NCBI RefSeq assembly: GCF_020382885.2
Contig: NC_058504.1
Span: 11,584,519 to 11,648,518 of the forward strand
From: Scatophagus argus
Taxonomy: Eukaryota; Chordata; Actinopteri; Scatophagidae
Reading direction: 5' to 3'
Length of the DNA: 64,000 bases
How positions within the stretch are numbered: the first letter of the stretch is position 1; each line of letters begins with the position of its first letter. This document shows, piece after piece, positions 26,803 through 63,605 of this stretch. The notes under the pieces were generated by a model. It was not told the DNA's origin and ran no database searches. It saw nothing but the letters and a program-made list of their open reading frames with translations. The position numbers and the translations under genes were made by a program.

Positions 26803-39715
<12,913 letters not shown>

Positions 39716-40830
39716 GGCTGGGGAAGAGGAGGGCGGTGGTGGATGGACGTGATGAAGGTAGGCTGGAGAGATGGACGTCCAGAAACGGACAGGAGCCTCC
39801 CTCTTCAGACCGCCTCTTCGCGTCTCTCTATCCACCTAGTTACCTCTGACGACGACCGGCTACTGTCAGTGTTTTCTAAGGCATTTAAAGCTGTTGTTTC
39901 AATATAATGAGATGAGATACCTGAAAGAAGCGGGTTCAGCCCTCATATGTCGCACAAGCACCATCTGCATCACGTCCACTCTCTCCCTAGCTATCTCTGC
40001 GGGTCAACTTAACGGAAACCTTTCTTATTTTACGACTTGTGAAAGTGCTTGGAAATGCTGTCCTTACGTCGACATATGGTATAGCAAAACAATAATCAAA
40101 ATACTATTTTCTCTGAGTTAGTTACCACGGGTTTTCGTCGTTAGCAGAACATCAGCTGTACAAGCCACTGGCTTTCTTTTGTCTTTTCACAGTGGAGCAG
40201 TCAGGTTTTTCCCACAGTAAAATAAAGTACACTGAAAGGCAATAGTCACCGCAATTAGGTCCTACACGAGTGATCCCATTGCCGATATTGACAAGCAACT
40301 GCAACTGAAGTTAATATCGCTCGCTCTATGCTTGCAAAAGCTTGTCAAGTTAAATACTTAAATCCCTCAACACAAACAAGATGGCTAAGCTATCCGTGGA
40401 GCGTTAGCAAACTAAAGGAAACCAGCTGCCCTGATAGCTGGTTGTGAAACAAAGTTATTAGCATAGGTTTGTGAATAACTTGCAATGGGTAGCCTACTGT
40501 AAAGTTACACCCCTTTGCGTTGGCTAACTATACCTGCTCGCGCATTAGCATAATTTCGATTTTCCAGCTAGGCAAAGGCTAACAGGAAGCGGAGTCTGGA
40601 AGGGAAAACAAGTCCAACAGTTCCGACATTACAAGCTAGCTAATGTCGCACTGTGTCGAGGTTAGGCTATTCGTTAATCAGCGCTAATAGTGCCTTAGCT
40701 CAGACCGTATGCGAAAACTCTCAGCTACCTTATCCGTCAAAGGAGGTGGACAGTATTTGTCCAATTTAAATCCCCTCTCGCATTCACTATCGAGTGTTTT
40801 CTCTGGTCAGCGGGGATTGTAGTTGAGATC
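39716..40830 (-). promoter_or_regulatory. CpG-rich rnf38 5'UTR and promoter region
   Basis: CpGs are dense from the first coding exon upward (about 39430-39870) and recur at 40120-40360 and 40550-40810. The sequence immediately upstream of the ATG is C-rich with no in-frame ATG back to a stop. It is a plausible TATA-less CpG promoter; the transcription start is not determinable. Confidence 0.5.
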
Positions 40831-42252: not shown

Positions 42253-45200
42253 AAAAAGATCACTCAATATCAATGAGAGCCTGTAAGTTAGAGAAAAAAA
42301 AAGTTAGAGGAAACTGATGTCTACAGCTGCACATATTAATATTTTTATTATAAAAACAGGCCAAATACAACATGAGAGGAGTTGTTTACCGAGACAAATG
42401 CACAGAATTATCAAGCAGCTCCACAGTTAACTTCAGTTCTACAAAGTCCTCATTTCAATTCACTATGTTGGGTTTACAGCCCGCATTTTTACTGGTTGAG
42501 TCATTTTCACTGCTCTCATCAACTGTTTTCAGCCGCAATGGGCGGCAACTTTCTATGAGCCATTTAGCAGCTAAAGAGCCACGGAAAGCGAAGCTGAATG
42601 TTGGAGTTACACTAAGTTGCTAGTTTATTGTAATGCGGACTAACTTAGTTTTAGCTAGGTGTACCTAATAAACTGGGAACTGAATGTACATTAGGTTTGT
42701 TAAGTAGCCAAAAACGTGAATGCTAATGATGCTCTGTGTCTGCTAGTTGTAAATAAGTAGCTGTTTGCTAGCAAGTTCACTGTGACAGATTATTTAGGTG
42801 ATAATGTTCAAATGTTTATAACTTGTCCTCCAGATGAAAAGTGACAAAAACAAATACTGCTTTAAAGAGCATCTTAACTAGCACTGAAAATCTTGTGTTT
42901 GCTGATATCAAGCGTTTTAACATTTCACCTTGCTGCATGATGTACGGGTTTACTTCAGGACTGCTGCAGATACAGGTGAGGATGTAGATACATAAAAGTG
43001 CTGCTTCTAGCAGTGCCAATTCACAGAAAATCAATTTTTGTATTGATGGATCGGTGTACAATCTAGTCAACAAAATTTAACAAAGAGGACAAAAGCGGGC
43101 AGCCTCAAGCACAGCAACGAACAGAAGAGAGCTGAAAATACATCATTTGAGAAGAGAAATTGGGTGTTCTAAAAATCCATCAACAACTTTATGCAACCAT
43201 TGTAATAAATACACTACATCCCCCTTCTCTCACACACACACACACACGGGCACAGGCTTTATTTGTAAATGGTGTAACTATCACAGCACCTGCATACACT
43301 TGTCGATGAATTGTCAACACATTGTTTTCATCCCACGTTGAAAATAAAGCTTTGCTTTTTCTTATTTTAAAGATACTGTGCAGGTTTTATAACTTAAAAA
43401 TCCATTTAATGCCGACAAACTTTACTTGAAGTTCTCTGAACTTTGGCAGCGATTACAGCTTACTCATCACCAACAATTAAATGTTATAATGATGCATCTA
43501 TCATTACAGATGCATTAATAGGCTCTTGCATTAGCAGTTCTTGGAGGTAACACACAGAGACCCCTGCAGCAAGCATGGGCCTGAGAAATAATTCAGCAGT
43601 TCGCAGACCATAAAACATCTTTTGAACTCCCTGCGAGCCAACGTGGCAGGAGATAAAAGACTCAGTTAGAAGAGCAGCAGCCTACCATATAAAGTATACA
43701 AAAAGTGCACAAAGCTCCTTAGTCAACAGTGGAAACTTAAAGTTTTCCCAGGTTTTTCAGCAGTCTAAGAACACACTTTGATCATCAAACCAGCTGATTC
43801 ATGAGGGTGAAAAAATGAAACAGGACCAAACTGTTGTCTGATAAACTTTGCATGACCTTATTCAGGAAAAAAGGAAAGACAAACCAAGATCCATGATGAC
43901 GTGAGGAACTTTACGAAGGAATGAAGGATAACGACGGAAGTAAAGCTTGGCATGTAGGGGTCCTGGTCCTGTGGGAGTGGGAGCTAGTCCTCATACTGAG
44001 TGCCAAACAATTCCAACCCAAGGTCAGTGAAGTCTTTCTGGTCTTAGCTGACGCATTGGAGAGGGAGAGGCAGATAAACTGGGAAGTAAACTTCAAGGTA
44101 ATCAGACCCATCTCTTTTGTACATAGGGGAACAGAACCAAGTACATCCCACAGGCCTAAACCCACCATACAAAAAATAGCAAGGTCTGGAGATGAAGGCT
44201 GATGTTGGACAGAAGCTGCAGTTTCAAGTTGCAGTCCATATCTCTGTACATCCAGACATTGTACTGTGGTCTTCCAGAAGTCAAGAAGATAATCCTGGAG
44301 GAACTTACAGAGCTATGTGAGGGTACTCAAGGGGTTGTCAAGAGGCATATGAGAGGGAAGCATCAAAATATCAACCTCTAGTGCAGGACTGCAGAGACAA
44401 ATGATGGAAAGTGTGGCTGTTCCCAGTTGGGGTTGTTTATAGAGGTTTCTCTGTACTGACTATTTGGCAAATCCTGACTGTTTAGTGTGCCAACAGAAAA
44501 GGGAAGAGGGAGGCAAGTTGGCGAATGGAGCGGGAAGCAGAGGGAGCCGCTTGCTCGATATGGAGCAGGTAAGAGGAGAGTAGCTGGAGGTCAGGGGAAG
44601 ATGGCCAGTGATTTGGTCAGCGCTGTTGACCCATTAACCAGAAGGTTTCACAGCTGAGTGTGGAAACACCATGTGGAAGTTGTGTACCATCTGTGAACTT
44701 AGCGTGTGAGATTGTAAAAAGGGACCCTTGGACGACACGATGCGTTTTTCCTCTTTAAAAAAGAAATCAAAGCAAAACGAGCACAGATAAAACACTTGCT
44801 CACGGAGTGCAATAACACTGTGTATATTATAATACACTATATGTTTAGTCACCTTTGGTTCTTTTCTGCATTTCTGTACGACACTGGCTGATGTCCTCCA
44901 TGGTGTCGTAGTGGCAAACATAGGGCAGTGAAGGAGAAGTCCCACTGATCATCCTCCTCTTGGTGCACTCCTTAGGTCGACAAAGAGATGAAGACACATG
45001 TCAGGAGACAGGCAGAGAATAAGAGCAAATTTGAAGGATGAGGGGAAAACAGGAGAAACAGAAAGGACAGAGAAAGAGAAGCAGAACATTAATAAAGATG
45101 CATACGTGCCAAGATCGAGCGAAGAAGTAAAAGAGAGATGGTAAAAGTAAGAGAAGAATAGCTTTCATTGGACACTTACATATCCATAATGGCCCCTCTC

Positions 45201-48200
45201 AGAGCAGTTGTAACAATGAGCGGGGTATTTCTTGTGTTTCAATGAGTAGATTGGTGGCCTGAGTGGAACATCTAACCGGACCTGGAAAAACATTTTGAAA
45301 TGTTCAAGAAGAACATTATTTGACATTTGCCGTTTTATGAAGACGCACCCATGCACTCATACTTTTCCATTTCTCATTTCTCATTTTGAACCATTTCTTT
45401 TTTCATAACTTTAAGCAAAAAAATACAGTCAGCCAGAAAGCTCATTTCATGTTTAGAAGCATTTGTGCATCTCGTTTTGGAAACAGGTCAGATTAGAAAA
45501 GTGCAGGCAAAGCTTCGACTCACTGTCAAATGGTACTGTCTCCATGTGTCAGGGCAGGCCTGAGGGAAAACCCGGAAAACAAATGAGAAAAAATTACTCT
45601 TTCAAGCAACAGACAAAAAAACATGAAGACGAGGAATTGTTTGCCAAGATCAAATAACACTTCACAAAGAGGGGCCCACAGACACCTGAGGCTGCAGAAT
45701 GTCAACACACAACTGACTTCCTTAAAACTGGCGACACACCTTCCAAAACAAATGCTCACAGGGGACAGAAGTAGAGGCCAACGGACAAACTCACATCAGA
45801 CAGGTGCCCTGCCATACCACAACGCTGGCAGTGTTGGTTCCACAGTGGGGGCCTTTCACAGGGCCTGAGGCCATGTGAAGGCAGGCCACAGCTGGGGCAG
45901 GGACGAGTCGGGCAGTCCCTGTGAATGTGGCCCTGAATCCCACACAGGATACAGGTGGAACATTTCTGCTGATACAGAGACAAAAAGATTTCTTTTTTCT
46001 TTACATAAAATGGATGTTATGATCTTTTCAGTCAACCTGGAACTACAACACTGAGAAAGAAACTTTAAATAAAGAGTGGTTAAGCTATTCAGCTGAAGCA
46101 AAAATCAACAGAAACATTTAGAGAGAACGTATTAGGCTTTACATATCAGAATAAAAAATTTCAGTGTTTTGTAATCTATTTTTGAAATGCATAATTTTTC
46201 ACAACAACACAGAAAAAAATTCAGTATTTATGCAGGAGATATAGGGAAGGAGAAGGGGATATAACCTGGACTCAAACAAGACACGTTGTTAAGAATCTCA
46301 GACCAGGACACCCACTGAAAGCGATTTCTTAATATTTGATTTAAATCGACTTAATAATGACATAAGAAAAATTACGTGTATATAAAAGAAAAGGTCATAT
46401 GAGTGCGTTCCTTTACCTTGTGGTAGTAGCAGCTTTTGGCAAGATGTCCCGTCCTGTTGCAGATGTTACAGTTCAGAAAACGACCAGGCACAAAATAGCG
46501 AATGGGGAGAGACTGATCAGCACCGTACTAGATGATGCGAGAGCACAAAGATAATTTAAATAACAATTTAAAAGGCCAGTCTTGTAAGTGTAGCCTTTTG
46601 ACAATACAACCTTACCTTGTCCTTCTCTGAAACAGCCCATGTATCCACGTAAGATTTGTCATTCTGATCTATAACGAACAGAAAAACCATGAACAATGCT
46701 ATGATTTGCATACATAAATATATTCAACCATGTTAAAATCATACAGTTCAAAGGCAGGATATCTCCTGGAATGCAACACACAGTTAAAAAAAACCCTTTT
46801 TATAAATCAGGTATTCTGTTTCATGAAGGTTGTAGCTCTCTCAGGACTTAGTAAACTGATGAAAAACACTTGACCTTCCCGCAATAACATTCACTGAGGT
46901 GAAACTTAAGGAAAAACTTAAAGCCTCTCTGCTCCAGTGGAGCTGCTGGCTGGAAAGATAAGATGAAGTGCTTGTGCAGGTTTAGTATCCTGGTGTGAAT
47001 ATGAGTATCATCATTAATGTGCAGCAGAGCATTTCAGAAAAGATGGGGCGCAAGCTGGCTAAACTGTGTAATATAAAAAATAAATTGCACTCCCATGGAT
47101 TCACAGACATCACTGCAGATAGTTCGGCCTGCCAATGAAATATTACTGCTCGTAGAGTTGTTGGTTATAGCAGAAAGGAGTTTTGTCTTTCAAATGATAG
47201 TTGAAACATTTGCCCAGAGGGAATGTAACACTTCAACTCAAAATCCCTATCGGTGAAGCCTGTTTGGTTTGCAAGTATTTTCAACATCACCCTGCATCTG
47301 TGAGTTTAAGAAATAAGAAATAATGTGTCTTCATTGTTTTACAGCAGTAATAACATAAGCAGGCCACAACACAAAGCTGTGCTCACCGTTTCAACAAAAA
47401 TCACAATAACAATTATTAAAACCCTTCTTTTAATTAATACTGACTTTAACTATTCCAGATGTTATATATTGCTGGGTGTGGGGGGTAATCTGACGATTTT
47501 ACATGACTGACCTTGAAGGCATCAACAACGTGCTTTTCAGGCAATTCATAGGGATTGCAGTTCATTGATCCTCTTACATTCCTCAATTTACTACCTCATT
47601 GATTATCCGATCTGTGCTATGTGAACAAATTAATATGGTGACACAGCCAACTATATGGCTACGCTGACTGGATCAATTACTTCTCGTGGCTCTTGCTTGG
47701 GTGTGTTATATGCTCATCCACTTATTAAACTAGTTGAATGCACAATACGGCTTGTGCTTACCCAGCGGCTGCAGTACCTTATTTAATCTCACTTACATGC
47801 ACATGAAATTCAAATGAAGCTCAACCTGTCCTATGCCAGTGGGTCAGCAGTGAAACACAACATGTACGTTCACATCTAAATTCTGAGATGAAGCCACACA
47901 CACTTGAAGCCTACATAGTGTAGCTGGCAGAGTCTAAATTACAGGTTACAGTGTGAATTTGGAATTTGACTGTGTCACATCTGACTAGAGTTAAACTCAT
48001 TATCCTTATCCTTATGTAGCTGAACTCTTTTATATATACTGTATACCTCATAGTTCACCGACAGTTTGACTTGTTTTGTTCCTTAACACTTCAGCTTCCC
48101 ACAATGCTAAACTAACCACCATAGAAAAACAACTCTTTGCTGCACCAGTAGTAGGACTACTGCAACACAAAAAATAATCCTACCTTCATCCTCAGAGTCG

Positions 48201-48556
48201 CCCTCAGAACTGTTCCAGTAGCTCAGGTTGAGCTGAATGTTTGAGTCTCCCAGCTGCTCCTCTCTTCCGAGGATCATCCACTCCTCGATGGGCTGGTCAC
48301 TGTCCTCGCCCTCCTCTAAGTCCAAACTCAGGTTGCTGTTCTGCACAGCCCGTCCAGAAGTGATGCTGAACGCCAGGAGGAGCGGAGGAGAGCTTTCTCT
48401 GCTGAGGCGTGAAGCTGGTTTACAGCTGATGCTTCGTTTCTGGCGACCGAATGTGAGCTCTTCTTCACTTTCTGAACTACCGAGATCCTCAATGAAGAAG
48501 AGATCGTCTTTGCCGCCTCCATCATCATCAGCATCTTCGCTTCCCTTAGCATCCAT
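41726..48556 (-). CDS. ZCCHC7, CCHC zinc-knuckle protein of the nuclear TRAMP-like RNA surveillance complex
   Basis: This is a complete 8-exon gene of 483 residues. Minus-strand coding exons are 48556-48184, 46668-46616, 46527-46417, 45965-45795, 45559-45524, 45281-45180, 44970-44853 and 42213-41726, all GT-AG and in phase. The start is the first ATG (MDAKGSEDADDD); the open frame extends upstream only through non-ATG codons. The order is an acidic N-terminus ending EEWMILGREEQLGDSNIQLN, then SYVDTWAVSEKDK, then zinc knuckles CNICNRTGHLAKSC, CILCGIQGHIHRDC, CPSCGLPSHGLRPC, CQRCGMAGHLSDAC and CYNCSERGHYGYEC. WRQYHLT and PYVCHYDTMEDISQC follow, and the Arg/Lys-rich tail ends RVRHRRK. The same order occurs in human ZCCHC7 (543 aa), where WRQYHLT is also exact. 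Human ZCCHC7 pairs with PAPD5/TENT4B to tail nuclear RNA for exosome decay; that role is transferred by homology. Confidence 0.93.
42214..44852 (-). other. zcchc7 intron 7
   Basis: This is a 2.6-kb intron before the terminal exon. The acceptor side is a (UG)n run (42248-42221 on the minus strand) preceded by a U-tract and followed by UUUUCAG. No other gene is supported; the open frames near 43.9-44.2 kb are short and unlike known domains. Confidence 0.6.
45961..45970 (-). other. Tandem NAGNAG acceptor at zcchc7 exon 4
   Basis: The minus strand reads TCAGCAGAAATGT, giving two adjacent AG acceptors three bases apart. Use of the upstream AG adds one Gln before KCSTCILC without changing frame. 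The downstream site is the one used in the model. Confidence 0.7.
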
Positions 48557-50119: not shown

Positions 50120-52745
50120 ATGGACGTACGCTTTGGACAGGTGCCGCTCACCGTTACGCACAGTAAGTAACGATGTGTCTTCAGTTAGAGGAGGTACCGC
50201 CAATACGCAGGCTGTAAGTTGCAGCCCTTCTTTTATTATTGTATGGTGATGAGTGCGCGGCTGCCCACGCAGTACCTTTTCATCGGTGTCTTTGTGATCC
50301 TCTCAGGGCATGGAGGGGTGAACCAGCTTGGCGGTGTCTTCGTTAACGGGCGCCCGTTACCGCACGTGGTGAGACAGCGCATCGTGGAGCTCGCTCAACG
50401 GGGCGTGCGGCCCTGTGAGATCTCCCGCCGGCTGCGCGTGAGTCACGGCTGCGTCAGCAAAATACTGACCAGGTAAAGGTACTCTGAGTGGTCATTTATT
50501 TAGAGTATATAATGATGTATTCAGTCATAGACGGAGTTATCGCCAGTGAACCAGATAATAATCACCTGGAGACTATCTGTAGTCTATGGAACTTTTCAAA
50601 ACAAAGTGTGAAACACGAAAACATCTTTAAAGTGCTCACTGGTAATTTGGAAATGCACATATGTATGCTTGCATGTGCGTAAATGCGTAATACTTATTTT
50701 CATGCAGCTTACTAGTTATATTATCTGATTTTATTTAACATATGCGTGTGATCATCCCGGGGTGCATTATTCAGAAATGTGTTTATTTTTAATATATAGA
50801 AATCTCAAGACCATATGATTTTTCTTGCTCTTTGAAGTGATATAGGTGCCATGCTTTCACCCACTTTATTCCACCTGAATCAGGTAAAACGTTAGACAGA
50901 CATCCTGACAGATATCAGTATTGTGAATTCAGATACAATGAAACAGGGAGCATCAGACCAGGACTGATTGGAGGCTCCAAGCCCAAAGTGGCCACTCCCA
51001 AAGTCGTGCAAACGATCCTGCATCTGAAACACACCAACCCCAGCATGTTTGCGTGGGAGATCCGAGACAGGCTGCTGCTGGAACGGGTGTGTGACGATGA
51101 AAGTGTGCCCAGCATCAGCTCCATCAACAGGTATGGACGATCTCGAGTGTGTGCTTGACAACAACAGACTCATACAGGGAGTGTTGAGTGAGTCCTGTCT
51201 GTCTCTGCAGGATCATCAGAAGCAAAGTCCAGTCTGAGTCTTACGAAGTCGGTGAGTTTCACTGTCCTTTCTACTCTTTCTTGATCTATCTGTCTCTCTG
51301 TGATGTTTCCTTACACTGACCTCTGGCCCCTGTATTGTCATCGGCATTATCAGTTGCCAGGGAAACAGCCTATTCTCCCGAGTCCACCTATTCCGTCTGT
51401 GGCATTCTGGGAATCAGGAAATGCAGCAGTAAACATAAGGAAGGTAATACAGTCTGTGAATGCAATCAGTGTATTTTTGTATTTATATGAGTATGCTTGT
51501 TTCTGCCCTTTTCGCAGAAGACGTTTTTGCACGTCACAGTAGAAAATGCACAGGTGTAAATAATAAAATGATGAATTAGCCAAATTTCATTGAGCCAAAT
51601 TTTCAATTAAAAAAATATTTCTCATTTACTTAAATAAAGTCTGAATTTCTGTCTCAGTTGTGAACTACAGTTTATGTTCTTACTGTTTCGGCAGGTGGAT
51701 AAAATAATGATACAATAAGAAAATTGTTAGACTAATTGGAACTTTTCTGCCTCTTTCAAATATGGATGCTTAAGAGACATCAGAGTTTTTTAATTTTCCA
51801 AGCTGTTTACATTAAATCACCATTTGACTGCATTTTTTCTTTCTCTCTCTCTCCTCCTGTGTCTGTGTTGAGGAACATGAAAAATCAAAAATATTTGTTC
51901 TCCACATTGACATCTTCAGGTGTAAAATAATCACAACTTCTTTTGTGTGAACACATTAACTCAAATTAGTAAATGAAATTAGTGTTTTGGGCACCACTAC
52001 TGTACAGTTTTCTTGGAGCCGGCATGTAGAGTCCAATGGAAATCTACTCTAAAATACAGTGCTTCGTTTAAAAAAAGAAAACATTTTTTATATTGAGTCA
52101 TACACCCTTATTTTTATTTTCTATATTTCAGAAAACCTGTGGGTGAAGTCAGAGATTTTTTTTCCTTGTTTTTATTTCATTGTTCTGAACCGAGTTGTGT
52201 AGGTGGATGTATTTACAGAGCAGACACACAGAATACGCTGACAGAATTCTGTGTTAATATTACTCTTGTTGAAACAGTCCCCGCGGCAGGACGTCCACCT
52301 CACCACCCCAGGCTTCTGTCCTCTCAGGCTGTAGGCTCTCTGCTCCTCCCAGCCTCCCCCTCACCTCAGCCTCTCATTACAGGCCCACGTACATCTCCAA
52401 CCCTCCATCACTGCAAGCCATTAGAACAGGGCATTGCACAGATGAAAATGTACACTTACAGCTGGGATGACACACATGCATGTATTTTATCATTCTACTA
52501 ATTAGAACAAGTGACAATTGCAGCATGGGGACGTAGGTAGGAAGAGAAATAAATGTGAGCTTGGACAGAAGCTGTTTTGTTTTCCAGGAGGAGACGTCTC
52601 CTACCACGAGCAGCCATGTTCCTGTAGTGATGCGTGGGGGTGGCCTGTCCCCTGCCTCACCCTTTACCATGGCCCACCAGCTAATCATAATCCAGACCTC
52701 TTGGGGCAGTATGCATCTAACTATGATCATTCATGTCTAATATGA
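50120..52745 (+). CDS. Divergent, compact PAX2/5/8-class paired-box gene at a PAX5-type locus
   Basis: This encodes a paired-domain DNA-binding transcription factor. Firm exons are 50307-50472 (166 nt), 50933-51130 (198 nt), 51211-51251 and 51354-51443. Likely exons are 50120-50162, 51518-51553, 52278-52388 (weak donor) and 52588-52745. The full chain is 843 nt (280 aa) with consistent phases, and phases at the paired-domain exons equal those I recall for PAX2/5/8. The paired domain (about residues 16-142) has [58 protein letters not shown] and SSINRIIR. ERVCD with [13 protein letters not shown] and INRIIRxKVQ points to PAX2/5/8, not PAX1/9, 3/7 or 4/6. An octapeptide YSVCGILGI (about 162-170) parallels YSISGILGI of PAX5. 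No partial homeodomain is recognisable. The last exon ([10 protein letters not shown] ... NYDH) faintly resembles the PAX5 C-terminus (YNDSWRFPN ... AYDRH). Many substitutions and short introns contrast with the conserved, very long vertebrate PAX5. Confidence 0.8.
50307..50472 (+). CDS. pax exon 2: paired domain, PAI subdomain
   Basis: It begins in phase 1 after CTCTCAG and ends ACCAG|GTAAAG. It covers the beta-hairpin ([17 protein letters not shown]) and the first helix-turn-helix ([20 protein letters not shown], then [11 protein letters not shown]). An in-frame ATG at 50243 upstream of the acceptor would allow an unspliced N-terminus; the spliced form is preferred because it keeps the family gene structure. 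Confidence 0.88.
50933..51130 (+). CDS. pax exon 3: paired domain, linker and RED subdomain
   Basis: It starts TACAATGAAACAGG after TTCAG and ends ATCAACAG|GTATGG. The encoded [20 protein letters not shown] and [20 protein letters not shown] carry the linker and the second helical bundle. Unusual residues compared with PAX5 include [12 protein letters not shown] where PAX5 has EKIAEYKRQNPT. Confidence 0.9.
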
Positions 52746-52951
52746 GTTCAGCTTTAATCTCTTAATTAAAATGATTTCTCTCATGTCTCCTCTTGTTTAG
52801 GGCCTCCATGTCCTTACAACTGAACTAGGCTGCAAAAGACCTCAGAGGAGAGAACATCATCCCCTCAGTGCCACAAACAAGAAGATTTCAAAACTGGATT
52901 GACTGAAATTGTATTTAGAACAATCCAAATCTCGATTAGAATTGTAAACAG

Positions 52952-52957
52952 AAATAA
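52952..52957 (+). terminator. Putative polyadenylation signal of the pax gene
   Basis: AATAAA lies about 207 nt after the proposed pax stop codon (52743-52745). It is in a suitable position for a short 3'UTR. Confidence 0.4.
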
Positions 52958-54741
52958 AAACTGAAAATAAGACTGAAATGACATCACTTTTTGTGTTTGT
53001 TTTCATTCATTTGGAGCCAAAGACCATACACATGCTGTGGTTTCAGAACCTTAGCAGACCTTCATCAGTCCAACGCATTATCCCGCCTCCCTGTCGCCCC
53101 CCCCTTGTGGCCCTCCTCATATTCCTCAGTCAGGGGCTGAGGGGTCGCATCATTAGGAGCCCTGTGATGGAGGACAGTGACTGTTTTCTCTCCTCGGTGC
53201 GCATCTCTCTGGCTTCCCCTCTAGCATGAGCGATTAAAGGAGGAGGTGGGAAATGCCAGAGGGACTGGCAGGGTCAAAGAACACCGCTGAGAAAAACATC
53301 TGTGACCAGCAGTGCGGCATCAGTCTATAGGAGGCGTGTAGAGAGCAGACGCATCGTGTGCATATCTACGTACATGCACTTTATGTATGCGTGACACATA
53401 AAGTATTTAAAATGTACAAATACTTGTATGCGACACCGAGGGGAATGTTTGTTGCAGATGTTAACATTTTCAATTTTAACGCCCTAAATGGAACGTAATC
53501 ATCATTGATGTTAGTTCCATCTGTGCTTTTCCTGCTGAATGTCACTTGTTAACTAATCCAGTAGAAGTTTGCATCATTAGGGGGCAAAGGCTGTCAGTGC
53601 TTTTGCTCATAGGTGTCACCGTCAGTAAGATTACACAGAGCTGTCACTTTCAAGCTGCAACTCGTTAAGACAACATATTTGGCTTTAAAAACAACGAATC
53701 TGAAGTGGCTCCTCACCCTCCGGCCATCTGCCAGTAATGAGTTGTTTTAGGTATTAGTTTTGTTCAGTCAATTCTCTGGAGGACATTATGAGACAAGCTG
53801 TTGCTAGGAGAACAGTGACGCCAGACGACCCAAAGGGGAAACTCTTATTTTCAGTCCTGACAACAAAACCAACAGGGACCCGATCAAAGACCTCAGGCTG
53901 TGCTCTGTGAAATAACACGAGCCAGTCCTACAGGTGTCCTAAAAAGTGAATACGTCTGAAACTAACAGTGAAAACATTTTTAAACCCATCGGTTGTGCTG
54001 TCAAAGCTTTAAATCAGTTGTTTACTCCTGCTCTCTCTTATCCAGGTTTCTGTGGCATGCCGTGCAGTGCAGCCTCCTGAAATAAACATGAAGATGTGGT
54101 TTAGTCACCTATGGAAAGCAAGTTTTTAAATGAATGTATTTTTAATTATCATTATTTTACATACATGCTACAGATGATTTTTAATGTGAAAAGCACATGA
54201 ACTACTCCTCAAGGACAACAGGTTGTGGACTGCAAGCTATCTGCATTACTCGGCAAACATGTCACCTGCTGAGTCATTCCTCCATGCAGGTATTTGCAGA
54301 ACACTTGAGGACACATTCAAATCTAAAAGTTACATGTAAAAAACTTGCTGTCACCTGTTTTTGTTCAGAACTCACTTGTCAAATACCTAAAATTGGCAGG
54401 CTGATATGTTAAACATTTAAAACTTGGGACTCTGCTGAAATAAAGTTGAAAAACTGTCATGCCCTCCTCACTGTGTTCTCTCATTGAAAATATATTTAGT
54501 TTTAACACAATATTAAAAGAGAAAGAAGACCTAGATTTTGTCTTTATCTCTATTGCATATTTGTAGATGGGGTTTTTTTTCTATTCGAAGGTGAATATGT
54601 CCATTGACTACATCAGAAAATGATGGTTCAGCTCTGTGTTTGCACTCAAGAGGTGGGAGGTTCAGCATCCATGTTAGTTTCAATTTCCCGGCCCTGTTGG
54701 CACACAGAGGATAAACCTGCTCAGTCACTCCAGCAGTAACG
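52958..54741 (+). other. Intergenic region downstream of the pax gene
   Basis: No domain-bearing frame is visible. The composition is ordinary and AT-rich, with no clear repeat ends. Confidence 0.4.
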
Positions 54742-56754
54742 ATGTGCAGCTGTAGTCCATCCTGCTGTCTGAACGACCTGAGCGCCTCCAATGATGCTGC
54801 TGCTGATCTTTGTCCACACCGTCGTTCACCCAGCAGCTGCGATGCGTTCAAAGATCGTCCGTCTAACGTTATTAGCATCTGCAGGGAGTACGAGCAGGCA
54901 GCAGGGGGCAACTTGTTTCCACACGTTTCACGGGTAAGGTGAAGTGAACGGTCTTCTACTGGTGGTGTTACTAGTAGTAGGTGTATTAGCAATATTAGAA
55001 TTGCTACAGCCACCATTGTACTTTCATCATCATTATTATTATTGTTATTATTAGTGTTAGTACTGTTGTTGTTGTTGTTGTTGTAAAAATTAAAAAGTGA
55101 AAAAGGAGAGAAAAGAAAACTGAAAACACATTTTTTAGGTTGGTCTTGAAAAGTTTTGTCTCATATAAACATCAGTTTGGAGTCTGCAGTGCTGTATGCA
55201 TGTCAAAGCAAGTAGACAATATTAACAACAGCAATAAACATGATAACGATGAATTTAATCAAACCAGACTTTTCCAAACAGACTCAAATTAATGGATCAT
55301 GATTTATTAGGCCACATGTTTAGTTATAAATTTATATAATTAATCATGTTATTTATTTAACAAGTGACACAGTGAAGGTCTTGGCTATTCCAATCTTATC
55401 ACATATAGCATTATATCATAGTTATTATTTAATTGTGGGTAATGTGGTACGAACAGAGTAAAACATTAACTAATTTACATGTCTCACGGTACACATGCGC
55501 TGTAGGTTGAACCACAGAGGAGAAACAGGCACAGTAAGAAATGGCTGCTGAGGAACTGCGTGCTATGTTTCCTCCTGGCATTGACTTTCCTCAGTAAGTG
55601 ATAAAATGTCCATGTGCTGACTGAAAGCAAACCAAGTTTTCTTGATGTACAACAGATTATAGAAGAGCTTAATATGACAAAGTTGACGAACGGCCATAGG
55701 AATCAATGGTCAAATGTCTCTGTGATATCAGTGCTTTCCAGTGGTGCAAGTGCACAAGTAAAAGTATTATCGGTATTACTATTATCAATAGATTGTAAAT
55801 ACTGATAGATCAATGCGTTTTACTGTTAATAATTAGCTGAAATATACATAGTTTCATCCAGTGGTTCCCAACCTTTGGTTTGGCCTCCTTCATAGGGTCA
55901 CAAGATAAACTTCTGCTGAGTCTTCTCAAATAATTTAATTTTTTTTTCTCTAACTCTTTAACTATAAATTGTTAGCGCCTCACACTTTTTTATGCTTATT
56001 GGTTCCTTTTCAAACCCTCAGTATTGATCCATAACAATGTATCAATAAGTTTACCATATGATTGAAGCAGTGGAGCAAAAGTATAAAGTAAATGAATATA
56101 AATTGAAAATACACCAGTAAAGAACAAAAACTTTAGAATTGTACTTAGGTAGTACTTTAGCGGATGTTATTTTGTTTATTTTGTTTTTTGGCTTATAACA
56201 GGTATAACTTATTACAGTATCAAGTTGGCTTAGTTCTAGTGATTATTATGACATTTTATAAGAAATTGCTTTTGAGTTGTTTGGGTTTTCCTTTTATTTT
56301 TGTCTTTTTCTTGCTCAAGTGGGAACAGTTGGAAAGGAAGACACTGATGTACAAGATTATGTAAGTAAATGTTAGCCCAAACACTTACAGCTTCCTGATA
56401 TAAGACGGAAAAGACTGTCTCTCTCTCTCTCTCTGAATGTCTTTCTCTGTCTTTTAGGATGCTGATGTCTTTCTTCTATTCCAAGCTCTGAGGTCGTTGG
56501 GACGTCTGCTGTTCTGGACTATTTTGTTGCTCCTGTGTCTCCTCCAGATGTTCCTCTGGTTGATCAAGTGCATGCTGTGGTTCATCTCCATTTCTGTGTC
56601 CCCCATCTGTCACTGTCTGTCGTTCCTCGTGTCCTGTCTTCTACTGCTGCTACATTACCTGTGTTATGCAGTGGTTTTTGCCACCGCCAGTCCCATGTAC
56701 GTTTACGGCATACTCCTCAGTGTCGGCATTTCACTTCTTATTTTCACCAGATGA
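54742..56754 (+). CDS. Unrecognised small multi-pass membrane protein (predicted four-exon gene)
   Basis: The predicted exons are 54742-54933, 55506-55593, 56320-56360 and 56458-56754, all GT-AG and in one frame (618 nt, 205 aa). The last exon is the best supported: 98 codons open after TTTTAG, very rich in Leu, Phe and Cys, with at least three hydrophobic segments (about residues 122-143, 150-182 and 188-204) and a C-terminus SVGISLLIFTR. Exon 2 encodes a basic stretch (RRNRHSKKW) followed by a hydrophobic segment (LCFLLALTFL). Exon 3 gives an acidic loop (GKEDTDVQDYDADV). The exon 2 acceptor has a poor pyrimidine tract and exon 1 is uncertain. I recognise no family. It sits between the pax gene and stap1 on the same strand. 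No function is claimed. Confidence 0.5.
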
Positions 56755-57713
56755 AAGCCAAACGTGTGTGGAAGATCATTTTCTTATATAGAAAGTAAAT
56801 TGCTAATTTTGCTTGTAAATGCCTAAACACCTTCAGCTTGACATTACACCACATTCTTCTTGATAACGAATGTTAGAAAACATTAGTGTAACAGATACTG
56901 CTGACTCAGTTGGTGAGTCTTTTCTACCTTTGCTGTTGTTAAATTTGACCATTTCATCACACCTCAGTAACATTTATACCGTCTCACTTTAAACAGCAAA
57001 ATGTTAACTATTGTGCTAATCTAATGTTTAAAATACGGCATCTTTTTAAAGGACATATACACCATAGTTTGTCTATGAGAGAGTTTACAATAATCATGAC
57101 TGTTAAATTGGGTGTCGTATTTAAGTGCTATCAAAAATACGTATTTTCCATATCACCTGTAGTGCTCTTTATCCATCTACACTGCTTTGGTGTGCATTGT
57201 TGAGTTAAAAATGTGCATTAAGTTATAGCTCATGTCAGAAAACTCCCTAAATGTGTGGTAACCATACCAATAATGTGATGGAAATAATTAACTTTCCTGT
57301 GCATTAAGAGTTTGTCTTATCTTGTGCTCTGTAGGTGTGTGTTGACTAGACAGAAGATTGCATGCTGAGTCTGCAGTCTTTGCTGTCTTTATGCCCAGGT
57401 TCAAAGTACAAAAGAACGTTTTTATTGGGGATATTTATACTAACTACTGCTTTCTTCATAAATCACTGCGGTGTTTCCTCATTCTCACAGGAGGACATTG
57501 CAGGTTTATAGACCAATAATCATTTCAGAAAAAGTAAACTAAGGACCCAACAGGGATTTCTCACTGCTTTGAGAGCCATGTGAGGCAACAACAAGAAACA
57601 AAACTTTCTCAGGACCAAAAACTGAGCTGTCTGTTGAGCGTTACGGACTTCACGGCTGGACGAAGAGAAGTGAACCGAGCACAAGTTGAGCCGCATCACA
57701 CGTGGATTCTGAC

Positions 57714-58859
57714 ATGTTTGCACACTCCAGAGTTGTCCACAAGAAGAGGGAGACCATCACCGCTCTGCCTCTCCACTACTCTGGAACTCTGCTGAAGAGA
57801 GAACGAAAAGATGAGGTGAGGCGGAAAAGACCCAGACTGTAAACGTATACAGTATGTAAGATAAAGAAATTTTCTATTTCTATGTGTACATATATTATTG
57901 GTATTATTATTATTACTATCATTATATACTGCTGTTGCTACCATTATATACTGTTATTTTACTATTATTTATTATCACACAAGTGTCCTTTAAGTGTATT
58001 TTTATTCTATTGTTCTACTTCAGCATTTCGTCTTATTGTATTTTTGTTGTATTCAAATGTACCGGACTGGTATGACATAAAGTCATCTATCTATCTGTCT
58101 GTCTATCTCTTTATCTAAACGAGTAATGACAGCATTCAGCATGAGGGTTTGTAAAAGCGGATTAAGTGCTGATGATTCAGTGCATGTGCAGCTGGCCAAT
58201 AGCAGGCATTCAAAATGACAGCTGTGATTTTCAGGATTTTAAGACGTTCTACGCGGAGCTCCGAGGAGCCACACTCTTTCTGTACGAGAATGACTCACAG
58301 GATACAGTAAGCAAACAGCTTCATTTGTTCCTCTGCCTTAAGTTTTACTCGTGACAGTAAAAATTGCAATTTATAAAATAACATTTTTACATGATTCATA
58401 AACAGTGAATTTAACAATCGTTTCCCCCAGATGTCTCTTGTGGAGCCTTAAACACCAAAGCAACACTGTTGAATCACGTTATAAGTCACTCCAATTTGAA
58501 ATCATGAATAAATGTCGTTCTGATCAAAAATGACTGATGACAAGCATCTCTGATTTTTGTTTTGTTTGTTTGTTTACTTTGTCAGTACACAGATAAGCTG
58601 TTCCTGGAGGACCTGAAGTCCATGGAGTTAGAGTCTCCATATAAGAATATGCAGCCATGCATCTTCACTCTCACACTGCCCACAGGGGAGGTGCAGCTTA
58701 AGGTGCGTTGCAGTGAAACCCGAAGGCTTTTTTCTTTTTTCTTTTGTTTGTAAGCTTCACGTGACCAAACTGTGTGCCGTTTGTGTTCCTGCACAGTTGA
58801 ACAATCCTGACAAAGGAGAGGAGTGGAGGTGTTACATCCTGACTGTGACCAAAGTAACC

Positions 58860-58891
<32 letters not shown>

Positions 58892-61221
58892 GCAACTAAG
58901 CTTTAAGACAGTGGGAGTCTGTTTAATCGATAAAAAAGCAATAACAAACCCCTGATGTTTTGAGCTCAAACCTGCTCCAAGAGCAGGTATTTAACTATAC
59001 ATGATTCTGGATCATGTATAGTGGAACAAAACAATTTGAAGGCATCTTTTTTTTTTCAAAAATGGATAGTGAGGTTACAAACAAGGTAGAAGGGATAGCT
59101 GCAAACTAAAAATAAAAAACAAGTTAATCTGTTAGGCACGAGACAGAAAGACTGTGTCAGTAAATATTAAGGAATTTATTTTCAGTGTTTGGATTGAACA
59201 CTTTTCTCACACTAGGATTTAGTTACTAATCCATTGCATTCTGTGTGAAATAGCCTGTACTTGTAATAAGAGTGAGTCAATGTTGAGGCTGAGCTCTGCT
59301 TCCCTGCAGAGACAGATTCCCAGTAAGGTGCAGCTGCTGCCTGGTCAGGTGTCACGGCTGGAGGACGCTCTGGCTGAGGAGAGGAGGAGAAAAAACCTCC
59401 CCATGTTCCGTCCGGAGCTCCCACCCCGACCAGCCCACCTAAACACAACCCCCATCTCCCCTCCGCTGACCAAAGACAAGCCAGACCATGACTCGGAGTT
59501 GCCCAAGTAAGTTAGACTTTCCTTTTCAGATTCTTCTTCCTAGTTATCTCCGCTCTCTGACAGACTGAATAACTACTTATTCCAACAAAAGATACAGTAA
59601 CACTAAGTGGTTATTAGCATTTTTGATCTCAACCACTTCTCATTATCTGAAACCTATAAACTTGTGTGCGTACATGCGGACCTTGTCCCCTGCCCTCTCG
59701 TTACGTCTCCAACGTTATTATCTCCAGAGGCAATGAGGAAATGTTTGTGCTTTTCTCGTGGTTCCTGCAGGTGTTTCTTCAACGTGACCCGGGAGGAAGC
59801 TAAACGGATGTTGGAGGCAAACCCCGAGTACGGAAGCATGATCCTCCGTCCATCCAAACTTCCCAACAACTATGCTGTGACCCTCAGACAAGTGATGTCC
59901 AGGTCTGACAATCCAGCTCAACTGCTGAAATGTACCATACAGAATAGTGCATGAGTTCATCTTTAGGAGACTCTCTTGAAGTGAGAGAAGTTGTCAAAGC
60001 CTTTGCAACCATTCACTCATCACATGAATATGAATCATTGGTTTCATAGCTTTTCTTTTATAGATAAACATATGGATTGGTGGTGGTTGCTTTTTGCTCA
60101 GTTTGTTTGCATTTCATATATAAAATGCACAAACAAGTCCAAGCGTTGTTGTTCGTCAAAGGTCAGCAGAAAGCAAATAATCCTCCTCTTCCTTGTGTTT
60201 CAGTGGGCCTGTTGTGACCCATTACAGAGTGACCTCCACAAACGCAGGTTTCATCATTGAATTGGACGAACCAGTAAGTCCCACTGAAAAAAAAAAATCA
60301 AATTGTTGCTGTGCGTTCATACACTCGTACTTATGGGAATTAAGATCTTTCCAAGTCGGCTGCTAAATCATCACCGCGTACATGTACTGTGTGTAAACTA
60401 AAACCTGAAATGCATAATTCAGTCCTGCAAAATGTGGATCCTCTTATGATTCCAGATATTTTGAGATTGGCCACCTTGATCACCAACATAGTCGCAGCAT
60501 TGGCCGCAGAGTAGGAAACGTTTACATATGCAAGTGGAAATGACGTCAATCATTGTTAATTTCTCTGCTTTTCTTCGCATGTCCTCTCCCCCGTAGGTGA
60601 CCGTCTCCTCCTTGGACAGTGTACTTAAATACTTTCTTGAAAAGACAGAGTACCGTTTTCAACCCTACATGCCTTCTGAGCCCTACAACACTCGCATCGG
60701 TGAGAAGAGCACCGCTGTCACAATTACACTCATGTTCAGCAGCAAGTTCAAAACTCCTAACAGTGTGTGTTCAACAGATTTGGCGCCTGCTCCGGAGTAC
60801 ATCACCATGAGGCCATTTGCATCTAAAACAGTACCCAAAGCTGAAGTGGTACCTATGCAGAAGTCACAGACCAAAGATGTATTTCCGTCCTCTACAAACA
60901 AGGGTGTGGAAGGTGAATACCTGGAGCCTGATGCTTCCTGCTCTGATTATCAGAACCTTGAGTAGGTTGGGAATGATTTATCAGATGCTGCTTTGGGTTG
61001 GTATATCAAGATGCATATATGAGTAGTCTAAATGAGTGTTGTGAATGAATATTTTTCGTCTGCCAGCTCAGTTGAATGAAGAGCTTCTGGAAGCTTTTAA
61101 AAAACTGAAGAAACCCGTCAACGCCACAGCTGGCAAGATGGAAGTCATCACCTGCGAGGGTGAAACCAGTGAAGATTCCAAGTTCAAAGTACAGTGGAAT
61201 CCGGAGACTGCAGCAAAGTAA
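57714..61221 (+). CDS. Signal-transducing adaptor protein (PH-SH2), STAP1-like
   Basis: This is a cytoplasmic adaptor acting downstream of tyrosine kinases in haematopoietic signalling (family knowledge). Coding exons are 57714-57815, 58235-58306, 58586-58702, 58797-58853, 59310-59506, 59771-59902, 60204-60273, 60597-60699, 60778-60912 and 61067-61221 (1140 nt, 379 aa). The PH domain runs from ITALPLHYSGTLLKRE through FYAELRGATLFLYEND and LPTGEVQL to GEEWRCYILTVTK. The SH2 domain runs from CFFNVTREEAKRMLE through GSMILRPS (Arg of the phosphotyrosine pocket) and THYRVTS to LDSVLKYFLEKTEYRFQPYM. ITALPL and LRGxTLF are closer to STAP1 than STAP2, but the C-terminal extension with a charged helix (LNEELLEAFKKLKK) recalls STAP2. 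The 78-nt stretch 60700-60777 and the read-through after 60912 give alternative forms. It is convergent with the ankrd13-type gene. Confidence 0.9.
60700..60777 (+). other. Optional 78-nt in-frame intron in stap1
   Basis: The stretch begins GTGAGA and ends TCAACAG, is a multiple of three, and has no stop in frame. Removal joins YNTRI to DLAPAPEYITM; retention adds 26 residues. Splicing is preferred because the retained peptide resembles nothing in STAP proteins. Confidence 0.55.
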
Positions 61222-61972: not shown

Positions 61973-63605
61973 TTACTTCTCGGTGAGTGACAGCTGCAGG
62001 ATCCTCTGCAGCTCCTCTTCTTCTTCCTTCTGCTGCCTATGACACAAATAAGAAATATCAATTTTTATTTGTATTAAAACTTTTACCTTGAAGGAATTCA
62101 TTACTGTTTTAATAATTAATTAATAATAATTATTTTAATTACAGATTCCTGACCATAACTGATGTTTCATTTCACAACAAAAAACTTAACATTCTTAACA
62201 TTCTTGATGTCAGAGGATGGTTGATATTATTGTAATTAAGTCATCGTAATGCCTGACTTTAGTATTTAGGTACAGTAGTTGCGCGCAAACATCAACAAGG
62301 TTTTGGAGAAGGTGTTTTCCTTTCAGTATATAAAACTGACTACAGTAAACACATAAACAGATGTGATAAAAATACATGTATTTGGTGTCTGTAGGTTTTT
62401 CTGTCCAGGAAAGAAGAGTAGATTTGGGGCAGAGTTCCTTGTAAATACTGTAATCTCAATATTCCAGTATTCAGCTGGGAAGAAGCAGGCAGCGTGTGTG
62501 TTTTCTCAAGCCCACACACCGCAGTCCACAGAAAACTTTCATCTAAGACACCGCAAAACACAAAAAGTCTTGGCACTAGACATGGTATGGTGTTAGCGTG
62601 TGTGTGGGTCAGGTGAACTGGCAACAATAAACTGACCACAGGTGAGACTACGAGTGTGCACAATCACTGTGATAAGAGCTAGCCAAGATGACAGAAGCCA
62701 TCTATGACCTATACTACTTCTGGCCACCAGGGGGCGTTCGAGATGTTCTGGCTTGGCTTCTGGGAGACTTTCATGACATCCGTGTTGTTTTCCTCCCACC
62801 TCACCTGTCCATCTCCTCCTGCTCCCGGCACGACAGCTCCATGGCAATACGCAGCTGCTCGTCAAAATTCGACGCCACATCAAAGTGTCCTGACAACCGT
62901 GGATCGGTCACTGCGCTGTAGGAGAGAGGGGAGTTGGCGGTGGGGTCCAAAGGGGAGATGGAGGACGGTTGGCTGGGGTCAGCCCTGTCCTCCCCCTCCC
63001 TGCTAGCCAATGAAATGGACAGGGACTCCTGGATTGCCCTGAGAAAGGAAAGAAATTAAGATATTAAGACTTAAATCAAACGATGTCTTAACGAGAAAGT
63101 TTCACTGCCGGGCTTCATTACAGGATGACTGTGATTTGCGGCTCCCAGGAGAAGGTGGAGAGTAAAAGCTAATCACTGAACTCTATTTAGAGACTTTTAA
63201 TTAAATTACTTCACAAGCCACAGTTGTCCCAGGATAAGAAAATATTATGAATTAAACCACATGATGGTTTACAGTCACAACCGCAAATGCTTCTATTTCT
63301 CATCTGGGACCCTTCCTTTTTCCCTTTTTCTAGTCAAAGCCACACAAAGATAAACTAATCCGCCCTGATGACAGCCTCAAGGCTCTACTAAATTCTACTA
63401 TATTCATTCATTCATTATTCTTTTGTTGTTATCTGCTCATGGCACACAACTTTTAGAAACCCTAATGAAATGACAGGAAAAAAATTATGAGAAATCAGAA
63501 AGCTGAAATCTGAAGGTCAGCTCACCTCTCCAGCTGAGAGTCTTCTTCGTACAGTGGGCTCTGGAGCACCGGGCGGCTGTTCGTCAAGGCCTCCCAGATG
63601 GTCAC
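61973..63605 (-). CDS. ANKRD13-family ubiquitin-binding protein, last three coding exons (partial)
   Basis: These are the C-terminal exons of an endosomal adaptor that binds Lys63-ubiquitinated receptors through ubiquitin-interacting motifs (family knowledge). Minus-strand exons are 63605-63526, 63038-62805 and 62036-61973, phases consistent, with the stop at 61973-61975. Exon order gives VTIWEALTNSRPVLQSPLYE, EDSQLERAIQESLSISLASR (UIM), FDEQLRIAMELSCREQEEMD (UIM) and EEEEELQRILQLSLTEK (C-terminal UIM). Ala, Ser and the acidic patches of the motifs are intact. ANKRD13B and ANKRD13D are the likeliest paralogues, and I cannot separate them. The ankyrin repeats and GPCR-chaperone domain lie beyond the right edge. 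Confidence 0.85.

Follow-up and report, generated by a model that had tools for sequence, protein, structure and literature searches.

A compact, fast-evolving PAX5-type gene in Scatophagus argus and other acanthomorph fishes, probably a retained second pax5

The gene pax5 is a regulator in B cells and brain. PMC2532684 credits teleosts with Pax2, Pax5 and Pax8, of which pax2 is present in duplicate, and the Fugu pax2 copies are studied in PMC1896008. Exon 1B is listed for the pax5 genes of zebrafish and Fugu in Table 1 of PMC6132355, with exon 1A given as having no match. Here we describe a PAX5-type gene, called pax5b below, at 50120-52828 on the forward strand of a 64,000-nucleotide stretch of the Scatophagus argus genome (C12:11584519-11648518; this whole stretch is the window). 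In our assessment pax5b is probably a second pax5 that arose with the duplication of a zcchc7-pax5 block, most likely an ohnologue from the teleost whole-genome duplication (WGD), and now likely serves as a short DNA-binding repressor or competitor. The gene is real, conserved and under-described. An earlier note on this DNA, made from its letters alone, knew of no described gene of this kind; this holds for the open-licence PMC papers searched, in which no report on a second fish pax5 was found (a description elsewhere is possible), and does not hold for databases, where the S. argus isoforms stand as automatic 'Pax-5-like' or 'Pax-1-like' models.

Paralogues, orthologues and constraint

A Pfam PAX search of the animal's own genome (570.7 Mb in 48 contigs) returned 41 matches of varying strength at E <= 0.001, with 150 of 169 candidates scored. 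Residues and tree position assigned five loci to the PAX2/5/8 type: the pax2 genes on C10 and C21, pax8 on C20, a canonical pax5 on C2, and the window gene. The canonical pax5 is a separate gene of about 46.5 kb from exon 1B (C2:15539321) to stop, which retains its partial-homeodomain exon (C2:15517338-15517478), and the reading of the window gene as the only pax5 was thus rejected. The paired domain of pax5b is identical to that of the own pax5 at 101/121 residues (83%), to those of the two pax2 genes at 98/121 and 97/121, and to that of pax8 at 93/121. The 20 differences from the own pax5 bear out the claim that many changes have accumulated in a nearly invariant domain, since the own pax5 and the two own pax2 paired domains differ at only 4 and 5 residues (117/121 and 116/121 identical). 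The Pfam PAX domain (PF00292) matched isoform P0002 with 221.3 bits and an E value of 3.3e-66, which excludes a chance match, and the best PDB sequence match was Pax5 (1k78, 233.6 bits).

The neighbourhood of the two pax5 genes is shared. When 1680 window open reading frames (ORFs) were compared by tblastn with 214 kb around the canonical pax5, four exons of the zcchc7-like gene that lies head-to-head with pax5b (44848-46016) matched a second copy at C2:15582791-15599408, colinear and head-to-head with the canonical pax5, the other matches being pax exons and a possible repeat. The two best blastn matches between the window and 214 kb of C2 were exons 2 and 3 of pax5. The zinc-knuckle exon of the zcchc7-like gene had two genome matches at E <= 0.001, itself on C12 and the copy on C2 (43% identity). 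Because a zcchc7-like neighbour stands in the same orientation at both pax5 copies, we interpret the region as a duplicated block. Beyond the zcchc7-like gene lies a RING gene whose RING exon (27287-27478) has RNF38 as its best PDB match (E 4.1e-17), and the zcchc7/rnf38 neighbourhood that had been proposed was therefore recovered.

Orthologues were collected from protein databases. The first two protein searches contributed their best 120 of 5656 and best 120 of 6563 matches, and among the matches listed 84 proteins resembled the window gene more closely than the own pax5 and were classed as pax5b type. A profile built from 36 of these 84 ranked pax5b rows at the top, interspersed with a few arthropod and other PAX rows, and canonical pax5 took up the list below about 315 bits (best 120 of 6563); one pax5b fragment (P0071) ranked among the canonical rows. 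A third search, with the 104-residue tail as query, returned 56 proteins, and all the named ones were acanthomorph. From the 84, ten rows were taken out as isoforms, fragments or near-duplicates (one of them, P0006, from another Epinephelus species), and then five more (P0021, P0037, P0077, P0109 and P0121) in which an insertion displaced the 117-residue stretch or the stretch had an end other than SINR or SVNR. Thus 69 of the 74 relatives examined gave a complete, alignable paired domain, which speaks against inactivation, and the complete domain is present in at least 69 named acanthomorph species, with no other fish group among the matches listed. Among the matches listed, Myripristis (Holocentriformes) is the deepest-branching holder of the gene.

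The two pax5 genes have evolved at very different rates. Over 117 paired-domain residues in 13 pairs with both copies (12 species, plus Takifugu rubripes paired with T. flavidus), canonical pax5 was identical at 117/117 positions in all pairs (mean distance 0.000; these rows came from likeness-ranked lists, a possible bias), whereas pax5b differed by a mean of 0.164 (range 0.043-0.256) and is clearly not one and the same sequence in all fishes. Between the own pax5b and own pax5 (121 codons), nonsynonymous divergence (dN) was 0.117 and synonymous divergence (dS) was 1.985, near saturation, for a ratio of 0.059, with 17, 10 and 65 differences at the first, second and third codon positions. Of the 117 columns, 55 were invariant across the 69 species, all 55 carrying the pax5 residue; at columns 37, 77, 80, 82 and 100 (PAX5 residues 57, 97, 100, 102 and 120) the pax5 residue never occurred (0/69). 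Arginine 31 was retained in 66/69, with histidine in three sticklebacks only (P0043, P0050 and P0066). According to PMC9372349, this arginine is stringently conserved in each of the nine PAX proteins and its change to glutamine weakens human PAX5. Taken together, these comparisons indicate that the pax5b paired domain is under strong purifying selection with clade-fixed changes, not simple relaxation.

Paired-domain changes and proposed function

To locate the changes we used an AlphaFold model from 53 sequences, with a mean predicted local distance difference test (pLDDT) score of 69; the paired-domain blocks scored mostly 82-97, the hairpin 60, the linker 53 and the tail about 50. The model has six paired-domain helices and its best Foldseek match was Pax5 1k78, with one subdomain alone fitting closely (1k78_I, root-mean-square deviation (rmsd) 2.9). 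For segments taken from the model, the mean fraction differing from pax5 over the 69 rows was lowest in the linker (0.06) and hairpin (0.07), followed by the recognition-helix segment (0.14), helices 5 and 6 (0.14-0.20), helices 1 and 2 (0.24-0.25) and helix 4 (0.59). Columns 77, 80 and 82 all lie in helix 4, the first helix of the C-terminal subdomain, and column 37 is position 42 of the paired domain. Three residues reportedly separate Pax6 from Pax5 recognition, to go by the title of a 1995 paper by Czerny and Busslinger, and we take these to be positions 42, 44 and 47, at which a PDB alignment gives the Pax5-Pax6 differences Q/I, R/Q and H/N. The pax5b triplet is RRH in 61/69 rows and QRH in none (0/69).

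The octapeptide of PAX5 binds Groucho/TLE co-repressors and the C-terminus of PAX5 activates transcription. The octapeptide that had been noticed from the letters is encoded by the window gene in the diverged form YSVCGILGI, and the pattern was matched in 54/69 orthologue rows, most commonly as YSISGILGI (24/69). Two medaka pax5b models (P0078 and P0079) are without the octapeptide exon, which may have been lost in the medaka lineage or missed by annotation. With canonical exon 6 as query, the partial-homeodomain exon gave a best score of 16.2 bits in 51131-53100, within the range of 30 shuffles (mean 15.0, maximum 18.1), and canonical exons 7 (13.9 bits), 8 (14.2 bits) and 10 (11.9 bits) did not rise above the shuffles, so that the transactivation/inhibitory region was not recognised. 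The Pfam C-terminal domain PF12403 was found in many canonical pax5 rows and in no pax5b row among the matches listed. A PAX5 protein lacking its C-terminal transactivation domain did not activate a reporter, according to PMC9372349.

In the explanation that we favour, pax5b kept exon 1B, its octapeptide and its paired domain, while tens of kilobases of intron, a detectable partial-homeodomain exon and any recognisable transactivation region at the C-terminus were lost. The protein would contact DNA by its conserved parts (beta-hairpin, linker and N-terminal recognition helix), with the C-terminal subdomain and paired-domain residue 42 altered; its octapeptide may recruit Groucho/TLE, and without an activation domain it could repress part of the PAX2/5/8-like sites or compete for them. 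To judge from its sequence, pax5b is thus likely a short DNA-binding protein that represses or competes at such sites. The strongest of the unlikely alternatives keeps the same gene and makes its protein an activator or a cofactor-dependent partner, for which the partly conserved cysteine-bearing tail (consensus QPCSCNDAWG, with no activity assigned) would offer a basis; it is set back by the failure of exons 7 and 8 to exceed the shuffles and by the missing PF12403. Going further than repression or competition, we tentatively suggest, as a serious possibility, that this fifth PAX2/5/8 gene of acanthomorphs has come to encode a short PAX protein forming a class apart, one that lacks a homeodomain, is probably repressive and prefers DNA sites of its own, and that it evolves fast alongside a sister with a frozen paired domain. 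It might further be linked to some trait peculiar to the lineage, in B cells, the ear, the midbrain or the gonad.

Origin of the gene and alternative explanations

A tree restricted to vertebrate PAX2/5/8, with 31 of the 84 pax5b rows, placed pax5b as one clade (100/99) next to teleost pax5 (80/89) and inside pax5 (82/85), a moderately supported position. One site in LLAERVCD, occupied by G in pax2 and pax8, is diagnostic of PAX5; pax5b rows have there R (20/31) or Q (11/31) and never G (0/31), the window gene holding the PAX5-type R in the LERVCD of its exon 3; two Sparus rows outside the 31 (P0077 and P0154) read LLLDGVCD with G. The derived residues R59 and S108 each occur in 24/31 pax5b rows and in 7/8 teleost pax5, and in 0/6 non-teleost pax5. 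On this evidence the origin of pax5b as a pax5 duplicate has good support from neighbourhood and residues and moderate support from the tree, and its dating to the teleost WGD is probable. The earlier suggestion of a WGD duplicate of pax5 under relaxed or new selection therefore keeps its duplicate, given the zcchc7-like gene at both copies, and loses simple relaxation, given the strong constraint and clade-fixed changes. The European eel has a locus, LOC118227625, named 'paired box protein Pax-5-like' in a blood gene-expression table of PMC9780358, where it is not stated whether a second copy is meant; it bears on the duplication date, and the '-like' label is uninformative, as canonical copies carry it too (P0107).

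Several observations weigh against this interpretation. The supports of 80/89 and 82/85 were not starred and the bootstrap had not settled. R59 is missing from Clupea pax5 (K59) and S108 from Brienomyrus pax5 (T108). The name of the zcchc7-like gene is a presumed one, which the searches did not supply. The octapeptide pattern was absent in 15/69 models, medaka included, these being diverged or without that exon and several of them truncated. The overall Foldseek superposition was poor (rmsd 13.8, TM score 0.44 by target), the subdomains being set differently. The exon 9-like exon resembles canonical exon 9 at 17.7 bits, with shuffles reaching 18.1, and a profile comparison with hhalign for exon 9/10 homology scored 13.2, not significant against 40 column shuffles (mean 9.7, maximum 16.1). 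Transcript support was sought in five contig proteins (P0155-P0158 and P0161), all of which look like genomic ORFs that include intron sequence. Finally, pax5b was seen in acanthomorphs alone among the matches listed, where a very diverged copy elsewhere would be missed, and a teleost-wide duplication consequently needs losses elsewhere.

It is this last point that favours a later duplication of the zcchc7-pax5 block in the acanthomorph stem, followed by fast divergence of pax5b, which we regard as improbable. All fish-named pax5b orthologues were acanthomorph, and Lota, Lampris, Clupea and Chanos had a canonical pax5 and no pax5b, in each case among the matches listed; S108 is common to clupeocephalan and elopomorph pax5 and absent from Brienomyrus. 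The strong divergence of the two zcchc7 copies in the zinc-knuckle exon argues against so recent an event, as does, weakly, the RING exon, for which, among 14 genome matches, the best other than itself (80%) also lies on C2, at a distance of 8.8 Mb, with one on C12 (79%) scarcely behind.

Less probable again is an origin outside pax5, with pax5b as a surviving fourth early-vertebrate PAX2/5/8 paralogue or a pax2 or pax8 derivative. When invertebrate and pax1/9 sequences served as outgroups, the root fell between pax5b and all other PAX2/5/8, and the approximately unbiased (AU) test of the outgroup-rooted tree rejected none of the groupings of pax5b with pax5 (p 0.497), pax2 (p 0.323) or pax8 (p 0.183); without the far outgroups the AU test also kept pax5b with pax2 (p 0.452) and with pax8 (p 0.375). 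These too count against a pax5 origin. The root position would be explained by a long branch drawn to far outgroups, and the R or Q in all 31 rows at the diagnostic site, R59/S108, and the zcchc7-like gene beside both fish copies stand against such an origin, as does the mouse arrangement, in which Zcchc7 adjoins Pax5 according to PMC6132355. The reading of pax5b as a decaying pseudogene or over-predicted model, which could draw on the want of transcript evidence in hand, the 15 models without a matched octapeptide and a seemingly shifted exon-9 donor, is scarcely credible and was rejected on the open, intact frames with splice signals, the dN/dS of 0.059, the 55/117 columns invariant in 69 species and the fixed new residues.

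Gene structure, neighbours and comparison with known PAX genes

The joined exons of the window (Table 1) reproduce letter for letter three S. argus database isoforms, P0001 (253 amino acids), P0002 (228 amino acids) and P0003 (186 amino acids).

Table 1. Coding exons of pax5b and neighbouring genes in the window
Feature	Position	Strand	Remarks
Coding exon 1	50120-50162	+	14 amino acids plus phase-1 base; donor GT at 50163; present in P0001-P0003
Exon 2, N-terminal half of paired domain	50307-50472	+	166 nucleotides; AG/GT borders; canonical exon 2 likewise 166 nucleotides
Exon 3, C-terminal half of paired domain	50933-51130	+	198 nucleotides; AG/GT; canonical exon 3 likewise 198 nucleotides
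Exon 4	51211-51251	+	41 nucleotides, 13 amino acids; AG/GT; in P0001-P0003
Exon 5 with octapeptide	51354-51443	+	AG/GT; 19 amino acids given
Alternative terminal exon of isoform X1 (P0001), coding part with stop	52278-52501	+	exact reconstruction of P0001
Exon 9-like, ends NPDLLG	52588-52708	+	phase-1 join to exon 5 in P0002; exact reconstruction
Last exon (exon 10-like)	52801-52828	+	stop TAG 52826-52828 (P0002), TGA 52821-52823 (P0003)
zcchc7-like gene (C12 copy)	44848-48553	-	head-to-head with pax5b; 5' exon 48195-48553 assigned by reading alone
rnf38-type RING gene	27287-39835, approximate	-	beyond zcchc7-like gene; outer limits from ORF list

Every internal exon border is AG/GT, and the sizes and conserved phases of the two paired-domain exons agree with those on which the PAX5 identification had been founded. 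The first exon is the counterpart of pax5 exon 1B (MEIHCKHDPFAAMH), and similar starts are present in most aligned pax5b rows. Canonical exon 5 matched pax5b exon 5 at 23.5 bits, beyond the maximum of 30 shuffles (18.1), and the best match of canonical exon 4 in the region was pax5b exon 4 at 16.5 bits, with shuffles up to 18.1. The compactness that the earlier note had reported stands, with a span of 2.7 kb; its gene end at 52745 falls short of the P0002 stop, and its eight exons gave way to seven coding exons in P0002 plus the alternative terminal exon. An AATAAA lies 3' of the last exon at 52953-52958.

Two further features of the 3' part were observed. The exon-9 splice donor (52703-52712) seems to be shifted by 4 nucleotides in S. 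argus, the P0002 junction being LLGQ-ASMSLQLN as against LLG-PPCHYS or similar in many orthologues, and as a result of this seeming shift P0002 ends in residues from a different frame than those relatives use. The intron stretch 52277-52590 looks conserved, with similar peptides in genomic ORFs of other species in differing frames, and may represent a regulatory element or the remnant of exons since lost.

Among the neighbours, the zinc-knuckle exon of the zcchc7-like gene contained no Pfam family, and its PDB matches were CCHC-knuckle proteins generally, including yeast AIR2 at E 0.077. The C12 copy of this gene is strongly diverged from the C2 copy, as that exon shows, and as the neighbour of a fast pax5 it may itself be fast-evolving. 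Downstream of pax5b, exon-like ORFs occur at 55543-59954 on the forward strand and 62801-63055 on the reverse strand; a Pfam search of three pieces gave no match, and the guesses of STAP and ANKRD13, respectively, were dropped. Elsewhere in the genome, weak matches resembling the paired domain (27-40 bits, some interrupted by stops) were found at C16:315230-315538 and 13 other places, and these probably derive from DNA transposons of the Tc1/mariner kind, the DNA-binding domains of which resemble the paired domain.

A further PAX2/5/8 member in 69 acanthomorph species, model and farmed fishes among them, would alter the reading of knock-outs, expression surveys and B-cell studies. With the canonical domain invariant in 13 pairs while pax5b has replaced a fixed set of residues, the gene also amounts to a natural experiment on paired-domain specificity in which the two copies can be compared within the same animal.

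In its exon 1B-type start, the sizes and phases of exons 2 and 3, the octapeptide, the 83% identical paired domain and the head-to-head zcchc7-like neighbour, pax5b resembles canonical teleost pax5 and human PAX5 (BSAP). It is unlike canonical pax5 in having no partial-homeodomain exon that was found and no recognisable transactivation region, in spanning 2.7 kb as against 46.5 kb, and in its fast paired domain, with helix 4 rewritten and residue 42 changed in 69/69. Mammals produce short PAX5 splice forms without the homeodomain and transactivation domain, which are expected to compete with full PAX5. These forms share with pax5b a paired domain without an activation domain; they are, however, isoforms of one gene, whereas pax5b is a separate gene with paired-domain changes of its own. 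The PAX4/6-group members pax10 and pax4, which are fast or truncated, offer a precedent for a diverged or shortened fish PAX duplicate, and differ from pax5b in their PAX group and in the domains lost. As a duplicated PAX2/5/8 gene in teleosts, pax5b is comparable to pax2a and pax2b, the duplicate being named in PMC2532684, but both pax2 copies, unlike pax5b, have evolved slowly, the own pax2 pair differing at only 3/121 paired-domain residues.

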